From: Ruminococcus bromii
Lineage (GTDB): Bacteria; Bacillota; Clostridia; Oscillospirales; Acutalibacteraceae
DNA length: 64,000 bases
Direction: 5' to 3'
Assembly: GCF_002834235.1 (NCBI RefSeq)
Contig: NZ_NNBY01000037.1
Location: 1-64,000 of the forward strand
The notes beneath the pieces were generated by a model, which was given only the letters and a program-made list of their open reading frames with translations, did not search any database and was not told the origin of the DNA. Positions 33,476-60,639 of this stretch are shown here, piece by piece. A program made the position numbers and the translations under genes. How positions within the stretch are numbered: the stretch's first letter is position 1; every line of letters begins with the position of its first letter.

Positions 33476-36400
33476 ATGAGACTACGCAAACCATTATCGA
33501 TTCTTCTTTCTCTGTCCATGATTGCAGGTATGTCGGCCTTTGCCTCAAATGCGGCAGTAACAAGCGATGAATCGGTTTCAGCAGGCAATTATTACAATGC
33601 AAATTATCTTGAAAGCTATGCAAGCAAAGCGTATAACGAATCGGGACTCGGCTCAGTGTACAGCAAAACTTCCACAACATGGAAAACCTGGTCACCTGAT
33701 GCGTCATCCGTAAAGCTCAAGCTCTACACAACAGGTTCTGACAACGAGGCGGGCGCTTCGGCAATCGGCACCTATGATATGAAAAAAGACAGCTCAACAG
33801 GTGTTTGGTCACTTAATCTGAGCGGTGATTACAAAAACAAATATTACACATATCTTGTAACAGTAAACGGCACAACCAAGGAAACACAGGATGTTTACTC
33901 ACAGGCTGTCGGTGTAAACGGCAACCGTACAATGGTTGTTGACCTTGACTCAACCGATCCGAGCGGTTGGTCGGACGATAAGCATGTTCTCTTTAACAGC
34001 GCATCCGAGGCGGCTGTATGGGAAGTTCATGTGCGAGATTTTTCAGTTTCCAAAAACTCGGGTGTGAGTGAGGATAACAAGGGTAAGTACCTTGCATTTG
34101 CCGAGGGCGGCACAACTCTTAATTCAGACACAAGTTCATCAGCCGTTTCAACAGGCATTGACTACCTTGTTGAGCAGGGCATTAACTGCGTTCAGCTTAT
34201 GCCTGTTTATGATTACGGTTCGGTAAAGGAAGATGTTGCAAGTTCTTCTTCAAACCGTAACTGGGGTTATGATCCGGTGAACTATAACGCTCCCGAGGGT
34301 TCATATTCAACAAACCCATATGACGGCAACACAAGAATCACTGAGTTCAAGCAGATGATTCAGGCTCTTCATGACAGAGGAATTTCAGTTGTAATGGATG
34401 TTGTTTACAACCACACATTCTCAACCGATTCCTGCTTTAACAGAACTGTTCCGGGTTACTACTACAGAATGCATTCATCATCAGCATATTCAAACGGTTC
34501 AGGCTGCGGTAACGAAACTGCGTCAGATAAGCTGATGTACAGAAAGTATATGATTGAATCCGTAAAGTATTGGGCGGAGGAATACCACATTGACGGTTTC
34601 CGTTTTGACCTTATGGGTATTCACGATATCACAACAATGAACGATATCCGTTCTGCTCTTGACGGACTTTATTCAGACGGTTCGGGTAAAAAGATTCTCA
34701 TGTACGGTGAACCGTGGACAGGCGGTTCAGTTGCAATTTCCGACGGTTGCTCGCAGTCAAAGGCAGGTTCGCTCAACCCAAGAGTAGGTATGTTCTGCGA
34801 CAGCTACCGTGATGCAATTAAGGGAAGCACAGACGGTTCCGATAAGGGATTTGTTCAGGGCAACACCGATAAGGCCGGAACGGTTGCAAACGGTGTAACC
34901 GGCAAGGGCTTTTCGGCTCAGGCTCCTTCACAGACAATTGCTTATGCCGACGCTCACGATAACCTTATCCTCTGGGATAAAATTGTAAAGAGTAACGGCT
35001 CATCAAGCTGGAATTCAACATCTTCATCACTCAGGGGACAGGTTAAGAAAGTAATGGGACTTCTCCTTACTTCACAGGGTATCCCGTTTATGACGGCAGG
35101 CTCGGAATTTTGCCGTACAAAACAGGGTGATACAAATAGTTACAAATCAAGCGACGCAATAAATGAGATTGATTGGTCAAGAGTAAAGACCTACTCGGAT
35201 GTTGCCGCTTATTACAAGGGACTTCTTGAAATCAGAGAAAACTATTCTCCGATGAAGAGTTCAACATTCAACACTCCTTCATTCCAGTCAACACACGGTG
35301 ATGTTGTTGCTTACACATATTCAAACAACAAGTCAAATGAGTGGGGCAAGGTTTGTGTTCTTGTAAACGCAAGTTCAACAAATGATTGGCCGATTACACT
35401 TGACGGCAGTGGCTGGACAGTAGTTGCAGACGGTACGACGGCAGGTCTTAAAAGTCTTGGCACAGTTTCGGGCAACACATATACAGTCCCCGCAAACAGC
35501 GCCTGTGTGCTCGTTCAGAGTTCAACATTCAACAACCTTAAGGTTAGTGAAAAAACATTCGGTACGGTAACAATTAAACATATTGATGACAGCGGAAATG
35601 TTCTCAAAACATCAACAGCAAAATATGCAGACGGTACAACATACCGTACTTACCCCGACACAACCATCCTTTATGACTATACTCTCAAGGATACTCAGGG
35701 TGTAACTTCGGGTACTGTTACAGGCGGAAAGAACTACAATGTAACTTATGTTTACAGCTCCAGCGGTATTCGTTCAGGCTATGTTACGGTAAATTATGTT
35801 GACGAAAACGGTGAGTCAATTAAGGATACCGTTTCAACAAAGTATCGTGAAGGCGACAGCTACAGCGTTCCGTTCACATCAATTCAGGGCTATCAGCTCG
35901 ACACAGACAAGTATCCTGCCAACACGACAGGTACATTTAACGGTACGAACACAACCATTAACTTTGTTTATAAGGCACTTGACAGCACAAGTTCGGTTGT
36001 TCACTACTATAACTCAAACAACTGGTCAAATGTTCGTTGCTATGCTTACACAGACGGCGGCGAAGAGCCTAACGGCAAGTGGAACAACGCAACTGTTATG
36101 ACAAGTGAGGGCAACGGATGGCTCAAATGCACAATTCCTGCACCAAGCTCATATGTAATGTTCCACACAAACTCACAGCAGGAGCCGGGTGCAAACGAGA
36201 CAGGCTACCTTGTTTCGGGCGAGGCATGGGTTCAGAATAAGAAACTCAGCTTTAGCAGCAAGGTTATCACAAGCCACATTGACGCCGCAACAGGTGAAAA
36301 GATTGCCGATGATGAAATTTTAATTCAGTCAAAGGTTTCTTCAGACGATACATACAAAACTTCTCCGCTTTCGGGCAGAACAGATGTTATTGCTCCCGTA

Positions 36401-37177
36401 AATGCGTCAGGCAACCTTTCATCGGGTATTATCAATGTTGTTTATCTTTACACATCATCGGAGCGTCCTTCAACTGCTCCTTCAACGGTAACTCCTACCA
36501 CAGCCCCCGTTACACAGCCGACGGAAAAAATCCTTATCGGTGATGTTAATCTCAACGGTGCGATTAATGTACTTGACGCAACAGCAGTTCAGAAGTACAT
36601 TGTGAAGCTTATAACACTCTCAGATAAGGCTCTTATCGCGGCCGCAAGATGTGACGCTGACGGCGAGGATGATATCGTAAGCGTTAAAGATGCAACATAC
36701 ATTCAGATGTATGTCACAAAGCTTGACGGTCACGGAAATGTCGGCACTTATTATGAGCCGGAAGTTACTCCGACAACCGCCCCTGTTACCGAGCCGGCAA
36801 CAGAAGAGCCGACAGTTGCTCCGACAACCGTTCCTGCAACAACAGCTCCTGTTACAGAGCCAACAACCACTCCGTCATCAACCTATACAGTTAAGTTTAC
36901 GGATTCACTCAACTGGGATGGTACACTCTACTGCTACTCATGGGCTGAAGACGGTACATCTACAAAATCATGGCCGGGCGTTGCGATGACATATCTCAAC
37001 ACAAATGACTATGGTCAGAAGGTTTACTCGGTTGAAGTTCCGAAAACTGTAGATTACATTATTTTCACCAACGGTTCGAGTCAGACCATTGATATCGGTT
37101 TTGACGGCACTTCGCTCAATTATTATACAGAGTCGCAGTATGATTCACAGGGTCATGCTTATGTCGGCACATGGTAA
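33476..37177 (+). CDS. Dockerin-bearing type I pullulanase (GH13_14-like), amylosome enzyme
   Basis: 1233 residues, secreted (signal peptide to about 28). Order: CBM48-like domain (about 60-165); GH13 catalytic domain with NWGYDP (about 263), DVVYNH (307-314), GFRFD nucleophile D378, acid/base E412 in MYGEPW, D495 in AHDN; MucBP-like modules at about 698-760 and 768-835; CBM26-like module (about 841-925); a third MucBP-like unit (about 929-1000); dockerin (about 1018-1086) with two Ca-loop helices (GDVNLNGAINVLDATAVQKY and CDADGEDDIVSVKDATYIQMY); a Thr/Pro linker; and a C-terminal CBM26-like module (WPGVAM, DYIIFTNG). It should cleave alpha-1,6 bonds in starch/pullulan and dock onto cohesin scaffoldins. 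It resembles R. bromii dockerin pullulanases such as Amy10/Amy12; which one, if either, is unresolved. Confidence 0.93.
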   Translation: MRLRKPLSILLSLSMIAGMSAFASNAAVTSDESVSAGNYYNANYLESYASKAYNESGLGSVYSKTSTTWKTWSPDASSVKLKLYTTGSDNEAGASAIGTYDMKKDSSTGVWSLNLSGDYKNKYYTYLVTVNGTTKETQDVYSQAVGVNGNRTMVVDLDSTDPSGWSDDKHVLFNSASEAAVWEVHVRDFSVSKNSGVSEDNKGKYLAFAEGGTTLNSDTSSSAVSTGIDYLVEQGINCVQLMPVYDYGSVKEDVASSSSNRNWGYDPVNYNAPEGSYSTNPYDGNTRITEFKQMIQALHDRGISVVMDVVYNHTFSTDSCFNRTVPGYYYRMHSSSAYSNGSGCGNETASDKLMYRKYMIESVKYWAEEYHIDGFRFDLMGIHDITTMNDIRSALDGLYSDGSGKKILMYGEPWTGGSVAISDGCSQSKAGSLNPRVGMFCDSYRDAIKGSTDGSDKGFVQGNTDKAGTVANGVTGKGFSAQAPSQTIAYADAHDNLILWDKIVKSNGSSSWNSTSSSLRGQVKKVMGLLLTSQGIPFMTAGSEFCRTKQGDTNSYKSSDAINEIDWSRVKTYSDVAAYYKGLLEIRENYSPMKSSTFNTPSFQSTHGDVVAYTYSNNKSNEWGKVCVLVNASSTNDWPITLDGSGWTVVADGTTAGLKSLGTVSGNTYTVPANSACVLVQSSTFNNLKVSEKTFGTVTIKHIDDSGNVLKTSTAKYADGTTYRTYPDTTILYDYTLKDTQGVTSGTVTGGKNYNVTYVYSSSGIRSGYVTVNYVDENGESIKDTVSTKYREGDSYSVPFTSIQGYQLDTDKYPANTTGTFNGTNTTINFVYKALDSTSSVVHYYNSNNWSNVRCYAYTDGGEEPNGKWNNATVMTSEGNGWLKCTIPAPSSYVMFHTNSQQEPGANETGYLVSGEAWVQNKKLSFSSKVITSHIDAATGEKIADDEILIQSKVSSDDTYKTSPLSGRTDVIAPVNASGNLSSGIINVVYLYTSSERPSTAPSTVTPTTAPVTQPTEKILIGDVNLNGAINVLDATAVQKYIVKLITLSDKALIAAARCDADGEDDIVSVKDATYIQMYVTKLDGHGNVGTYYEPEVTPTTAPVTEPATEEPTVAPTTVPATTAPVTEPTTTPSSTYTVKFTDSLNWDGTLYCYSWAEDGTSTKSWPGVAMTYLNTNDYGQKVYSVEVPKTVDYIIFTNGSSQTIDIGFDGTSLNYYTESQYDSQGHAYVGTW

Positions 37178-54635: not shown

Positions 54636-56063
54636 TTAAGCCCATTTGAGGGTATCGTTGTAGAGATTGATGTAGTCCTGAGCCGAACGCTCCCAACTGT
54701 TGTCGCTCATCATAGCACGCCACATAAGCTGATGCCAACCCTGGTCGTCCTGAATGCCCCACAATGCTCGTCTTACGGCAAGCTGCATATCTGCACATTC
54801 ATAGTTTTTGAATGTGAATCCATTACCGTAGTTGTCGGCACTGTCGAAAACAGAGTCTTTAAGACCGCCAACCTCACGAACAACAGGAATTGTGCCGTAA
54901 CGGAGTGCAATCATCTGTGCAAGACCGCAAGGCTCCTGAGCAGACGGCATAAGGAAAATATCTGCGCCTGAGTAAATCTTTCTTGCAAGCTCGGGAACAA
55001 AGCCGTGACAGAAGCAAAGTCTGCCCGGATACTTAGCCTGCATATAGTTGAAGTAGTCCTCGTACTCCTTGTCACCTGAACCGAGAATTACAAACTGCAT
55101 ATTTTCTGTGTCCATAAGCTCCTCAAGACCCATTCTTACAAGGTCAAGTCCCTTGTGTGCAACAAGTCTTGTTACCATACCGACCAGCGGAACATCCCAG
55201 CGCTGTTCAAGACACAAACGCTCCTGCAAAGCACGCTTACATTCGCCCTTGCCGCTCATATCGTCCTTTGAATAGTTGCGATAAAGCTGATAGTCTGTTT
55301 CGGGATTGTAGCTTTCTGTGTCAATACCGTTCTTGATACCGCAAAGCTTGTAGTGACGAAGATTGAGTTCGTCATGAAGACCCCAACTGAACCACGGGTC
55401 TTTAATTTCAGCCGCATAGCTTGGAGAAACCGTTGAAACACGGGTAGCTGTTTCGATAGCACCCTTCATCATATTGAGTTTGCCGTTCATTTCAAGAATC
55501 TTTGTTTCGGATGCAGGAATGCCGACGCACTCTGTGTTAACTTCCCAGCCGTATTCACCCTGATACTGGATGTTGTGAATAGTGAACAGACTCTTAATGT
55601 TATAGTACCATGGTCTGTGTGAATAGAACAGATAGTAGTAAACAGGAACAAGAGCCGTCTGCCAGTCATTACAATGAATGATGTCGGGATGGAAATCAAT
55701 GTAAGGAAGCATTTCAAGAATTGCACGGGAGAAGAAAGCGAATCTTTCAGCGTCGTCATAATGACCGTAGAGAGTGCCTCTCTTGAAATAATATTCGTTA
55801 TCAATAAAATAGTATGTACAGTCATTCCATCTTGCCCAGAACAAACCGCAATACTGATGACGCCATGCAACCGGCACGGTAAAGTTTGTGATGAAGTTCA
55901 TGGAGTTTTTAAGTTCCTGCGGAATTGTGCCGTAAAGCGGAACAACAATTCTGCAATCCTGACCTTTTCTGCAAAGTGTGTGCGGAAGACTTCCTGCTAC
56001 ATCAGCAAGTCCGCCACTGCCGCAGAAAGGATTAGCCTCTGAAGCACAGTATAAAATTCTCAT
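54636..56063 (-). CDS. glgA: Glycogen synthase (ADP-glucose)
   Basis: 475 residues, GT5 family. SGGLADVAGSLP near residue 17 and EPCGLAQMIALRYGTIPVVREVGGLKDSV near 380-410 are the two nucleotide-sugar sites. The family Lys of the KTGGL motif is replaced here (CGSGGL), a variant I believe occurs in other Clostridia. MMKGAIETATRVSTVSPSYAAEI and HCNDWQTALVP are conserved. It extends alpha-1,4-glucan chains from ADP-glucose. It is the last gene of glgB-glgC-glgD-glgA, 28 bases after glgD. Confidence 0.95.
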   Translation of the reverse strand: MRILYCASEANPFCGSGGLADVAGSLPHTLCRKGQDCRIVVPLYGTIPQELKNSMNFITNFTVPVAWRHQYCGLFWARWNDCTYYFIDNEYYFKRGTLYGHYDDAERFAFFSRAILEMLPYIDFHPDIIHCNDWQTALVPVYYYLFYSHRPWYYNIKSLFTIHNIQYQGEYGWEVNTECVGIPASETKILEMNGKLNMMKGAIETATRVSTVSPSYAAEIKDPWFSWGLHDELNLRHYKLCGIKNGIDTESYNPETDYQLYRNYSKDDMSGKGECKRALQERLCLEQRWDVPLVGMVTRLVAHKGLDLVRMGLEELMDTENMQFVILGSGDKEYEDYFNYMQAKYPGRLCFCHGFVPELARKIYSGADIFLMPSAQEPCGLAQMIALRYGTIPVVREVGGLKDSVFDSADNYGNGFTFKNYECADMQLAVRRALWGIQDDQGWHQLMWRAMMSDNSWERSAQDYINLYNDTLKWA

Positions 56064-56091: not shown

Positions 56092-57204
56092 TTATACAAC
56101 AGATTTTTTAGCAATATAAATGGGGTACGAATCATATCCCATAAGTGATCGACCATCCTTGATGGTAACATCCTTATCTATGATAACATAGTTGAGGTTG
56201 GTATTGCAACCTATTTTTGTGTCCTGCATTACAATACAGTTAGAAAGCTTTGCGCCTTCGCCGACATAAACACCCTTTGAAATAACGCAGTTCTCAACCT
56301 CACCGTTGATAACACAACCCTGTGCAATGATTGAATTTTTCACATTGCTTGTAAGTCCGTAGCGTGACGGAGCGTCATCTCTTACCTTTGTATAGATAGG
56401 TCTTTGCGGATTGAAAAGCTCATCCCTTACTTCTTTTTTCATAAGATCCATATTGAACTCAAAGTAATCGTTGATTGAGCTGATTGCCGCACAGTAACCC
56501 TTATTTTCATAAGCATAAATACTGTATTTGCCCAGACTGCTCTGAAGAAGTCGCTTTACATCAAGCTGATTAACGCTGATGGCGTTTCGGATTTCACTCA
56601 TAAGAATGTCTTTCTTGATGAGAATAGAGCCGTATGCGTGGTTGAATACCTCTTTGTCAACAACACCGGGCTTTACAAAAATCTGATTTACCTTGCCGTC
56701 ATTGTCTACATCAAGGGTAATCGGTCTGTCATAGCCCTGCGGAATTGCATGATTCTTATATATAAGTGTAATGTCTGCCTTCTTCTTTGAGTGGAAGTCA
56801 AAAACATCTGTGTAATCAATGTTAGTAATTACATTGCCCTGTGAAATAAGCACATACTCCTCACGGCAATGCTCAATGTAGCCGTGCATATTGTAGATTG
56901 TTTCAACAAAGCTTGAAAAAGCCTTGCCGTCATATGGTGGGAGAATTGAAAGATTGCTCCTTCTCTTTGAAAGGTCATATGCACTGCCCGAACCCACATG
57001 ATCCATAAGTGACTGAAAGTTGCTTTTTGCAACTATGCCTACATTGCTGATACCTGAGTTTGACATATTCGAAAGGTCAAAGTCGATAATTCTGTATTTT
57101 CCGCCGATCGGAACGCTTGCAGTTGTTCTTGAAGATGCAAGCTCGGGGATTTTGTCGTCAAGTGTTGCCGCAAAGATGAAACCGAGTACATTATTACTTC
57201 TCAT
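56092..57204 (-). CDS. glgD: Glucose-1-phosphate adenylyltransferase, GlgD subunit
   Basis: 370 residues. It has the nucleotidyltransferase fold ([25 protein letters not shown]) but lacks the GlgC-type Gly-rich phosphate loop at the N-terminus ([18 protein letters not shown]), and it ends in a left-handed beta-helix. This matches GlgD, which pairs with GlgC in Firmicutes to form the active, more responsive ADP-glucose pyrophosphorylase. Its start overlaps the glgC end by 11 bases and has GGAGGTGG inside glgC. Confidence 0.95.
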
Positions 57205-58405
57205 TGCCGTCCACCTCCGTGTCGCTGTCTATCATGGTTTTTGCTTTGATAACGGTGTTTTCTTTGATAACGGTATTTGCACCGACAACAGTAATTCCCC
57301 AGTCGTCAATATTTTCCGTTTCTTCGGGGTTTTGTCCGACTTTTGCATTTTTGCCTACAACGGTGTTTTCGGCAATGATAGCAAACTGAACCTCGGCACC
57401 GTCCTCAATTACCGCACCGGGCATGATGATTGAAGAATTAATCGTAGCATTTTTACCGATTGTAACACCTGCAAAGAGAATTGAGAACTCAAGGTTGCCG
57501 TAAACATTGCATCCGTCGGCAACGAGTGAATTTTGGATTGACGCCTCGTTTGAAACATAGTGCGGAGGCATCATCGGGTTTCTTGAGTAGATATCCTTGA
57601 GGTCTAAAGTAACCTTTGGATCGAGAAGATCCATATTAGCCTCCCAAAGGCTGTCGATTGTTCCCACATCCTTCCAATAGCCTTCAAAAGGATATGCAAA
57701 CATACGCTCACCTGCGTCAAGCATGGCAGGGAGGACATCCTTACCGAAATCGTGGCTTGAACCCTCTTTGAATTCATCCTCCGTAAGATACTTTTTAAGT
57801 TCCTTCCAACTGAAAATATAGATGCCCATTGAAGCGTTAGTGCTTTTCGGATGAGCAGGCTTTTCTTCAAATTCGTAGATTGAGCCGTCCTCATTTGTGT
57901 TGAGAATACCGAATCTTGAGGCTTCTTCAAGCGAAACATCAATTACCGCAATTGTACAAGCGGCATTCTTTTCCTTATGATATTCAAGCATCTTGTTGTA
58001 GTCCATTTTATAGATATGGTCGCCCGAAAGGATGACCACATATTCAGGATTATAACGCTCAATGTAGTTGATATTCTGATAAATTGCATTGGCTGTTCCC
58101 GAATACCAGTCTGCACCGTCAACAGCCTGATAAGGGCTGAGACAGTTTACACCCGAGTGCATACTGTCAAGATCCCACGGCTGTCCGTTTCCTATGTATT
58201 CGTTAAGAACAAGAGGCTGGTACTGTGTGAGGATACCTACAGCGTCAATGCCTGAATTTACACAGTTAGATAACGGGAAATCAATAATACGATATTTGCC
58301 GCCAAACGGTACGGCAGGCTTTGCAAGCTTTTTGGTAAGCACGCCAAGACGAGAGCCTTGACCGCCGGCAAGCAGCATAGCCACTACTTCCTTTTTTGGA
58401 AACAT
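57194..58405 (-). CDS. glgC: Glucose-1-phosphate adenylyltransferase, GlgC catalytic subunit
   Basis: 403 residues. The catalytic loop [34 protein letters not shown], the [17 protein letters not shown] site and the [10 protein letters not shown] sugar-phosphate site are present. A beta-helix of hexapeptide-like turns forms the C-terminus. It makes ADP-glucose from ATP and glucose 1-phosphate, the committed step of glycogen synthesis. It lies 72 bases after glgB in the same operon. Confidence 0.96.
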
Positions 58406-58477: not shown

Positions 58478-60400
58478 TCAATTTTCTTTCTGAGCTTCAT
58501 CGGGTTCAAGTTCTTTTACACACCTCAGATAGATTACGCTGAGAGGTGGGAGAGTGAGTGAAAGTCCCTGATCAAAACCGTGAATTTTCATTACCTCGGT
58601 TTTGATATTATTACCGTTCACAACACCGCTTCCGCCGAAACGCTCTTCATCAGAGTTGAAAACCTCGTCATAAAGACCGTATTTAGGAACACCGATGCAG
58701 TATTCGTCACGCCTGATGGGCTGAAAATTACATACCGAAACAATTTCATCACCGTTTTTGTCGGTGCGCTTGAATGCAATAACGCTGTTTGTGTAATCGT
58801 CATGGTGAATCCAGTCAAAGCCTTTCCAGACCGTGTCAAGTTCGTAGAGCGGCTTGCAGTCAAGATAAAATTTGTTAAGCTCTTTAAAAAATGTTCTGAG
58901 CTTTTTATGCTTTTCAAATTCAAGCAAGTCCCATTGAATTGCCTCTTCGTGATTCCACTCGTCAAACTGTCCGATTTCAGTTCCCATGAACACGAGTTTC
59001 TTGCCCGGATGAGCGTACATATATGTTATGAATGCTCTCACGCCTGCAAACTGCTCGTCATACTTTCCGGGCATCTGCTTTATGAGTGAGCCTTTGCCGT
59101 GAGAAACCTCGTCGTGTGAAATCGGCAGAAGGAATTTTTCTGAAAAAGCATAATAAAAGCTGAAAGTAAGACTGTCATGATTGAACGGCCGCCACATCGA
59201 ATTGAGTGACATATAGTGCAGCATATCGTTCATCCAGCCCATGTTCCACTTGAAGTCGAAACCAAGACCGCCGTCCTCTATTTTATGAGTAAGCTTTGGC
59301 CATGATGTGTTTTCCTCGGCAAACATCATAACATCGGGGTGGTACATATGAACAGCCGTGTTGAGTCTTTTTACAAAATCAACAGCGTCAAGATTTTCTT
59401 TTCCGCCGAATTTGTTCGGTTCCCATTCACCCTCGGTTTTACCGTAATCAAGGTAGAGCATAGAGGAGAGTGCGCCGATTCTCAAACCGTCAATATGATA
59501 TTTGTCGAGCCAGAACATTGCGCATGAAACAAGAAAACTTGTAACCTCGAATCTTGCGTAGTTGAAAAGGCAGGTTCCCCATGAGTCACGCTTGCTTGTT
59601 TTTGGATCGTTGCTTTCATAAAGAGGTGAACCGTCAAACCTTGCAAGTCCGAAATCGTCCGTCGGAAAATTTGACGGAACCCAGTCAAGAATCACACCAA
59701 TGCCTTCACCGTGAAGCTTGTCAACAAAAGCCATAAAATCAGACGGTGTGCCATAGCGTGAAGTCGGGGCATAGTAGCCGGTTGTCTGAAAACCCCAGCT
59801 GCCGTCATAGGGATACTCCATAATCGGCATAAGCTGAACATGGGTGTAGTGCATCTCCTTTAGGTAGGGGATAAGCTCATCGGCAAGCTTTTGATAGTTA
59901 AAAAAGTTGCCGTCAGGATATTTTCTCCATGAGCCTGCATGTATTTCATAAATATTCATCGGTGACGATGAAATGTTGTTTTCTTTGCGTTTATTAAACC
60001 ATTCGCTGTCATTCCACGAATAGCTTTCTATATCATATACAACAGAGGCCTGACCTGGGCGGGTTTGAGCATGAAAAGCATACGGATCAGCTTTCATAAG
60101 CCTGTCGCCGTATTCGCTTTCAATGCAGTATTTGTATGTACAAAACTGTTTTACACCCTCGACAAACACTTCCCACACACCGTAACCGATGTTATACATA
60201 TAGTTTGCCTCGTTGTTCCAATTATTAAAATCGCCTGCAACCGAAACGCTCCTTGCGGTTGGCGCCCACACACGGAACACTACTCCGTTTTTGTCGTTAC
60301 GGTTCACGAGGTGTGCGCCCAAAAAATCATATGCACGCACTGAATCGCCGGTGTGAAAAACTTCAAGAGCCGGTCTTGCCTCGTTAAAGCTGTAATTCAT
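58478..60400 (-). CDS. glgB: GlgB-type branching enzyme homologue with altered active site
   Basis: 640 residues. CBM48-type N-domain (FRVWAPTARSVSVAGDFNNWNNEANYM), GH13_9 barrel and C-terminal beta domain are all recognisable and colinear with E. coli GlgB. However the nucleophile Asp of region II (LRVDAV, D405 in E. coli) is Gly309 here (LRIGAL, codon GGC at 59474-59476). The region I GH of DWVPGHFP is S243-N244. The acid/base Glu (EE at 362-363) and the third acid (HDEVSHGKG, D430) remain. It heads the operon and the frame is intact, so it is not an obvious pseudogene. Either it is a non-catalytic glucan-binding protein or it works in an unusual way; normal branching activity is doubtful. 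Confidence 0.9.
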   Translation of the reverse strand: MNYSFNEARPALEVFHTGDSVRAYDFLGAHLVNRNDKNGVVFRVWAPTARSVSVAGDFNNWNNEANYMYNIGYGVWEVFVEGVKQFCTYKYCIESEYGDRLMKADPYAFHAQTRPGQASVVYDIESYSWNDSEWFNKRKENNISSSPMNIYEIHAGSWRKYPDGNFFNYQKLADELIPYLKEMHYTHVQLMPIMEYPYDGSWGFQTTGYYAPTSRYGTPSDFMAFVDKLHGEGIGVILDWVPSNFPTDDFGLARFDGSPLYESNDPKTSKRDSWGTCLFNYARFEVTSFLVSCAMFWLDKYHIDGLRIGALSSMLYLDYGKTEGEWEPNKFGGKENLDAVDFVKRLNTAVHMYHPDVMMFAEENTSWPKLTHKIEDGGLGFDFKWNMGWMNDMLHYMSLNSMWRPFNHDSLTFSFYYAFSEKFLLPISHDEVSHGKGSLIKQMPGKYDEQFAGVRAFITYMYAHPGKKLVFMGTEIGQFDEWNHEEAIQWDLLEFEKHKKLRTFFKELNKFYLDCKPLYELDTVWKGFDWIHHDDYTNSVIAFKRTDKNGDEIVSVCNFQPIRRDEYCIGVPKYGLYDEVFNSDEERFGGSGVVNGNNIKTEVMKIHGFDQGLSLTLPPLSVIYLRCVKELEPDEAQKEN

Positions 60401-60450: not shown

Positions 60451-60478
60451 CTTATATAATACCAAAATTATATGTCAA
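60451..60478 (-). promoter_or_regulatory. Promoter of the glg operon
   Basis: On the minus strand: TTGACA (60478-60473), 16-base spacer, TATAAG (60456-60451), about 50 bases upstream of glgB. Confidence 0.68.
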
Positions 60479-60609
60479 TTTCAAGCAAATTCAAAAAATT
60501 TAAAACTAATTTTTCGTGTATATTTTATAAACTGCGACTAAATGTTACATTTTAAAGCATAATTTTACGAATAAAGAAAAATAAGGATAAATATCTTCCG
60601 AAAAGGAAA

Positions 60610-60639
60610 ACAAAAAGGGCTGTCCAAAAAGGACAGCCC
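60610..60639 (-). terminator. Terminator of gap
   Basis: Minus-strand GGGCTGTCC / GGACAGCCC stem followed by five T and a T-rich tail. Confidence 0.88.

Follow-up and report, generated by a model that had tools for sequence, protein, structure and literature searches.

The window, that is, the whole 64,000-nucleotide stretch of Ruminococcus bromii DNA that was analysed, contains a glycogen operon headed by an altered gene for the branching enzyme GlgB, whose product is here referred to as GlgB*. The features of the locus are listed below.

58478..60400, minus strand: glgB*, a catalytically degenerate GlgB paralogue of 640 aa, in a single uninterrupted frame

Protein domains of GlgB*: CBM48 at residues about 27-108, GH13 barrel at about 149-509, C-terminal all-beta domain at about 530-627

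59474..59476, minus strand: Gly309 codon, at the position of the nucleophile Asp (G in 48/48 degenerate and D in 86/86 intact rows)

59669..59671, minus strand: Asn244 codon, at the position of the region I His (N in 48/48 degenerate and H in 86/86 intact rows)

57194..58405, minus strand: glgC, ADP-glucose pyrophosphorylase catalytic subunit, named by eye, with AGGQGSRL and GDH motifs kept

56092..57204, minus strand: glgD, a non-catalytic GlgC paralogue, with AATLDDKI for [11 protein letters not shown] for GDH

54636..56063, minus strand: glgA, glycogen synthase, named by eye, in the same order in related operons

60467..60494, minus strand: sigma-70-like promoter match upstream of glgB* (consensus match; 2 found against a shuffle mean of 1.5, which is chance level)

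60617..60639, minus strand: intrinsic-terminator-like stem-loop with a T tail, between the GAPDH gene and glgB* (1 found against a shuffle mean of 0.0)

The terminator-like stem-loop after the GAPDH gene suggests that glgB* starts its own transcript, and AGGAG was seen by eye 5' of its start codon. GlgB* leads the operon in all 13 placed loci, with glgC and glgD next in 13/13 and glgA as well in 12/13, the other being cut by a contig end. In five of the six placed genomes without GlgB*, the same operon is headed by an intact GlgB (L236-L238, L278, L279), and the sixth, G068, has a single intact GlgB far from glgC (L232). In G068 (L232) and G138 (L150) the single intact GlgB and glgC lie on different stretches, and GlgB* was not found in either genome; G010, rated 100% complete, possesses glgC and gave no GlgB match by protein or by intact motif. 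The GlgD of the window (56092-57204), in which neither the GGxGxRL nor the GDH motif of GlgC is present, is 99% identical to that of its nearest relative and 73-84% identical to those of the GlgB* operons in 12 of the 13. Its identity to the GlgD of the five operons led by intact GlgB is only 52-59%, a bigger drop than for GlgC or GlgA, and GlgD may have changed together with GlgB*.

Residues 239-246 of GlgB* read DWVPSNFP, with Asn244 at the region I site, and residues 305-313 read GLRIGALSS, with Gly309 at the region II site. We take the catalytic set of E. coli GlgB to be Asp335, His340, Arg403, Asp405, Glu458, His525 and Asp526; at a constant offset of 96, Gly309 presumably corresponds to the nucleophile Asp405 and Asn244 to His340. 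Thus GlgB* lacks both the nucleophile Asp and the His of region I, and retains the acid/base Glu (region III) and the stabilising Asp (region IV). A reading made earlier from the sequence only had claimed just these two losses, and they are borne out by Gly309 and Asn244 in the 640-aa frame. It had also proposed an alignment with E. coli and Bacillus GlgB; among relatives from named genomes, His and Asp occupy the two sites in 80/80 (the best 80 of at least 596 candidate stretches), so Asn244 and Gly309 are not normal variation.

In sequence family and predicted fold the protein resembles a branching enzyme. Six curated GlgB models match it, and the cut-offs of three are exceeded (score/cut-off: NF008967 874.8/577, NF003811 873/741 and TIGR01515 795.8/463.95), with GlgB* falling under those of NF009221, NF011293 and NF011294. 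Models of glgX and pullulanase score far below the GlgB models. The AlphaFold2 model has a pLDDT of 90.1 and its best structural matches are branching enzymes, namely 9u77 (Z 47.4, rmsd 1.6, 616 aligned) and, with Z of 44.8-47.3, 1M7X and 4LPC (E. coli), 5GQU (Cyanothece BE) and 21JH (Faecalibacterium FdBE2). Because the nucleophile is absent, GlgB* would not be expected to branch by the double-displacement mechanism.

The draft state of the genome is the sole point in favour of a sequencing or assembly error behind the altered residues, and the probability of such an error is negligible. The altered residues recur in relatives whose proteins are 96, 94 and 93% identical and whose synonymous divergence from the window copy is 0.30-0.68, which rules out base calling as their source, as the sequence-only reading had anticipated in calling such an error hard to invoke. 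Moreover, the residues are common to 48 distinct proteins from separate genomes, and the same change in genomes across the genus refutes the error.

The sequence-only reading had also suggested looking for the substitutions in related genomes, and at least 55 of the 161 genomes of the genus were found to carry them, 48 as members of one clade. This count comprises 54 DNA-pattern matches to DWVPSNFP among the 161 genomes, minus G009 and G051, which read His, plus G001, G098 and G149, whose sequences deviate from the pattern and which were found instead as protein matches. We read 49 of the 55 as protein (48 in the tree, L218 being a fragment), and the remaining six (G030, G088, G152, G153, G154 and G158) were assigned by the exact motif alone. 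The degenerate form accounts for 28 of the 30 best matches in the genus, and 40 further loci hand-chosen from the match list comprise 19 degenerate and 21 intact ones. GlgB* was not detected in 106/161 genomes, among them 53 of the 81 with completeness of 90% or more and contamination of 5% or less, a subset in which the carriers are 27 pattern matches with G009 taken off and G098 and G149 added. Spread beyond the genus was considered and rejected: a family sample (398 genomes, 392 of them from other genera) gave five matches, three in the own genus and two with His, an order sample (394 genomes, 390 of them from other genera, partly the same genomes) gave three, two in the own genus and one with His, and neither gave an Asn match outside the genus. 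All these spread counts are lower bounds, since the one-mismatch pattern misses variants such as G001, G098 and G149.

In a quick tree of 130 GlgB proteins (SH-aLRT without bootstrap, no isoamylase rows), the 48 degenerate proteins form one clade with SH-aLRT of 100, nested among GlgB proteins of the same genus and unchanged after removal of 13 diagnostic or near-diagnostic columns. Rows aligned over less than about 500 residues (e.g. L218), duplicates and rows from named genomes below 52.5% identity were left out of this tree. Taken from these protein comparisons, the results show a loss of the active site that evidently arose once, within one genus, in the operon copy of glgB. Other members of the genus also have two further, distant types of second GlgB (L204-L209 with L219, and L210-L216), about 45-48% and 40-43% identical to the window protein, and the nucleophile and His are kept in 14/14 of those read.

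We then compared the pocket of the 48 degenerate rows with 86 intact rows (84 distinct proteins), a set that left out 16 intact rows, namely the 14 most divergent second copies (L204-L216, L219) plus L188 and L189. Five changes relative to the intact rows, E189Q, A243S, H244N, D309G and R321K, are each found in 48/48 of the clade, followed by A312S (47/48), V311L (45/48), H271R (43/48) and V206T, I360F and V433S (42/48 each). Nine positions besides D309G and H244N are therefore shifted; among them Ser243 is not diagnostic, since it is found too in 2/5 distinct intact sister proteins (7 rows, two repeats). Of the seven GH13 signature residues, five persist in 47-48/48 members, namely Asp239 (47/48), Arg307 (48/48), Glu362 (47/48), His429 (48/48) and Asp430 (48/48), and so do, in 48/48, Trp202, Gln205, Tyr209, Trp274, Trp326, Asn329, Trp385, Asn386, Trp389, Gln478 and Trp482. 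With 176/627 columns invariant in the clade, an invariant site is nothing unusual; the notable point is that the clade is invariant for residues absent from the intact enzymes. A few members deviate further, with E362Q in L165, D239E and W240I in L133, and loss of Glu431 in 5/48 and of Glu481 in 3/48. Moreover, the window protein and 23 others of the clade have Phe for Tyr204, which we take to be the equivalent of E. coli Tyr300, whose mutation reportedly lowers activity. The 48-member alignment contains no new clade-wide carboxylate in the barrel, and a relocated nucleophile was rejected on this ground; the sole clade-wide carboxylate gained is Asp529 in the C domain (Asp in 47 and Glu in 1 of 48).

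The coding sequences show that GlgB* is under purifying selection. Its dN/dS (Nei-Gojobori) has a median of 0.057, a range of 0.03-0.08 and a maximum of 0.078 in 16 pairs of the clade, against a median of 0.038 in 13 pairs of intact GlgB; we picked close pairs, of which some have branches in common and a few are saturated at synonymous sites. Neither a broken frame nor relaxed selection, as in a pseudogene, was found: the 48 rows are free of stops over the aligned protein, apart from residue 638 in two of them, where the sequences differ in terminal length. Across 20 genomes in which we read both copies, the mean p-distance is 0.292 for GlgB* and 0.137 for its intact twin (2.1 times); by region, the ratio is 3.0 for the barrel, 2.3 for the N-terminal part with CBM48 and 1.26 for the C domain. 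The constraint on GlgB* is thus eased but still strong and shifted towards the C domain, whose slow divergence points to a kept non-catalytic surface. Over 45 pocket sites the divergence is 0.073 in GlgB* against 0.002 in the active twin, and within the GlgB* barrel it is 0.073 for these sites against 0.280 for the rest, on a biased list, since the sites were hand-picked after seeing which ones differ.

The intact twin is a stand-alone gene at C27:127914-129812 (L024), encoding 766 aa, which answers the proposal of the sequence-only reading to search the genome for a second GH13_9 enzyme. In its own genome and two relatives, no glgC, glgD or glgA lies within a stretch of about 15 kb around it (L233-L235). 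Its tail (L024:1081-1460) consists of more than 100 C-terminal residues very rich in Lys, Ala and Glu and is absent from GlgB*. An intact-type GlgB motif is present in 54/55 GlgB* carriers (33 by the 0-mismatch motif, 9 more by reading the copy and 12 by hit count only), the exception being G090, which is 76% complete, and the second copies of carriers are intact in 21/21 read. From its kept residues the twin is predicted to be able to branch. A GH57 branching enzyme, also sought at the suggestion of that reading, was not seen in the genome; the only two Pfam GH57 matches are weak and lie in open frames of 298 and 268 aa that read, in translation by eye, as polysaccharide deacetylases, and a GH57 substitute was rejected.

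The sequence-only reading had proposed either a glucan-binding pseudoenzyme or branching by another protein. Both parts find support, the former in the look of a pseudoenzyme (conserved loss of nucleophile and His, with fold and frame kept) and the latter in the intact GlgB of L024; the binding of glucan is what we infer. Its further expectation of a nearly linear stored glucan, should no other GlgB exist, is not supported, because an intact GlgB is present in the same genome.

We consider GlgB* to be, with somewhat better than even probability, a non-catalytic, glucan-binding GlgB paralogue that assists the enzymes of the glycogen operon or the intact twin. The sequences show that both the nucleophile Asp and the His of region I disappeared once from the operon copy of glgB, with an intact GlgB kept as a separate gene, and that purifying selection has since preserved GlgB* full-length with a fixed altered pocket. 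It would most likely hold an alpha-1,4-glucan chain, uncut, in the old donor cleft and at surface sites, acting as a glucan-binding partner of GlgA, GlgC/GlgD or the intact twin, a partnership that might tune where or how chains are elongated and branched. This mode of working would be like that of plant ISA2 and would parallel that of GlgD, the dead GlgC paralogue two genes downstream. Against it stand the evolution of GlgB* at about twice the rate of its twin with a somewhat higher dN/dS (0.057 vs 0.038), pocket sites far more variable than those of the active twin, and the few members that drift further. Since 106 of the 161 genus genomes show none, GlgB* is not needed for glycogen synthesis as such.

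The same absence, which includes 53/81 genomes of high completeness, together with the faster evolution, could also be expected of a redundant operon copy on its way out and kept only by its place at the operon head. We regard such decay as very improbable, given dN/dS of 0.03-0.08, a frame free of internal stops in the 48 rows, bar residue 638 in two, and altered residues fixed in 48/48 across proteins down to about 61% identity. A structural subunit, in which the C-terminal domain and the CBM48 surface hold enzymes together and the old cleft is unused, is the least unlikely of the alternatives, though still doubtful. It would account for a C-terminal domain nearly as constrained as in the active twin, beside a barrel three times faster, and for the new clade-wide acidic Asp529, but not for the cleft Trp, Asn and Gln and the five catalytic-site residues still found in 47-48/48; moreover, the 45 pocket sites (hand-picked, biased) have diverged far less than other barrel positions (0.073 vs 0.280), and the CBM48 part is not spared, being 2.3 times faster than in the twin.

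The retention of five of the seven signature residues in 47-48/48 and the fixation of five altered positions in 48/48, unlike plant ISA2, might instead reflect new catalysis, in which the remodelled pocket with the acid/base Glu and the stabilising Asp does another alpha-glucan reaction without an enzyme nucleophile, e.g. single-displacement transfer or phosphorolysis. We find this unlikely, since no new carboxylate is fixed in the barrel, the acid/base is lost in one member (E362Q, L165) and half have Phe for Tyr204. Besides, retention needs no chemistry, as the kept GH13 catalytic-site residues also take part in binding the sugar ring in subsite -1, and we know of no natural precedent for nucleophile-free chemistry in GH13. 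The stronger version, that GlgB* is changed and not dead, with the Glu and Asp plus Gln189, Asn244, Gly309, Ser312 and Lys321 acting on alpha-glucan by a mechanism new to the family, is slightly less likely still. GlgB* makes the question of why dead copies stay under selection testable in bacteria with small genomes and with recombinant proteins, in a setting where the dead GlgD lies in the same operon, relatives have the intact enzyme in the same place and the intact twin is in the same cell. It also bears on glucose storage by resistant-starch degraders of the R. bromii type, and counts of 'GlgB' in gut metagenomes can include proteins unable to branch by the known mechanism.

In the list of GH13 proteins of human R. 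bromii, Table 1 of PMC5814915 gives Amy10 with 1233-1234 aa, Amy13 with 639-641 and Amy14 with 762-767, and describes Amy13 as a CBM48-GH13 protein without a signal peptide and with the presumed function 'glycogen'. GlgB* is probably Amy13 and its twin Amy14, a match made by size, domains and the other GH13 proteins of the genome and not by accession. The lengths of the other GH13 open frames fit the list (stop to stop, so somewhat longer), and a pullulanase of 1233 aa in the window (33476-37177), with CBM48, MucBP and CBM26, fits the amylosome enzyme Amy10. As to a link with the amylosome, dockerins were found in 24/24 genomes, of which 12 carry GlgB* and 12 lack it, so having dockerins does not tell the two groups apart. 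The main text of PMC5814915 contains neither 'inactive' nor 'catalytic residue', and a limited search of open-licence literature found no report of a dead stand-alone GlgB or of the lost active site of Amy13.

GlgB* resembles the GlgB enzymes of GH13_9 in family models, the CBM48-barrel-C domain order, predicted fold, place in the glg operon and the kept acid/base Glu, stabilising Asp, Arg and cleft aromatics, and differs from them in having Gly for the nucleophile Asp and Asn for the region I His in 48/48. The structure of the Cyanothece D434A mutant (6KLF) represents a man-made change at the same position as Gly309. Among natural systems, ISA2 is, as described in PMC12510319, a non-catalytic isoamylase-type GH13 paralogue of plants kept beside an active enzyme; at least 4/5 catalytic residues vary in every protein examined there, and why selection keeps it is stated as not understood. 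GlgB* is likewise a conserved, probably dead GH13 paralogue in storage-glucan metabolism, with clade-wide nucleophile loss under purifying selection and an intact paralogue in the same genome. However, ISA2 belongs to the GH13_11 debranching lineage of plants, whereas GlgB* is of the bacterial GlgB family and keeps five of seven signature residues; that it is ISA2 itself was rejected, since GlgB models score far above glgX/pullulanase ones and the tree places it among GlgB proteins. GlgD, presented in PMC9093745 as an inactive modulating subunit of ADP-glucose pyrophosphorylase in Firmicutes, is likewise an inactive copy of a glycogen enzyme and shares the operon, but its fold and step are unrelated and it is described for Firmicutes at large, while GlgB* turned up in a single genus among the genomes sampled. 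Finally, an inactive bacterial branching domain as such is already in print: the section of PMC11046441 on Criblamydiaceae/Waddliaceae describes a GlgA-GlgB fusion with an inactive branching domain and GlgB2 alongside, which is similar in combining such a domain with another branching enzyme. Its inactivity is ascribed there to the gene fusion, in a broken GlgC-GlgA pathway, whereas GlgB* is a separate full-length protein with fixed substitutions in a complete glgC-glgD-glgA operon.
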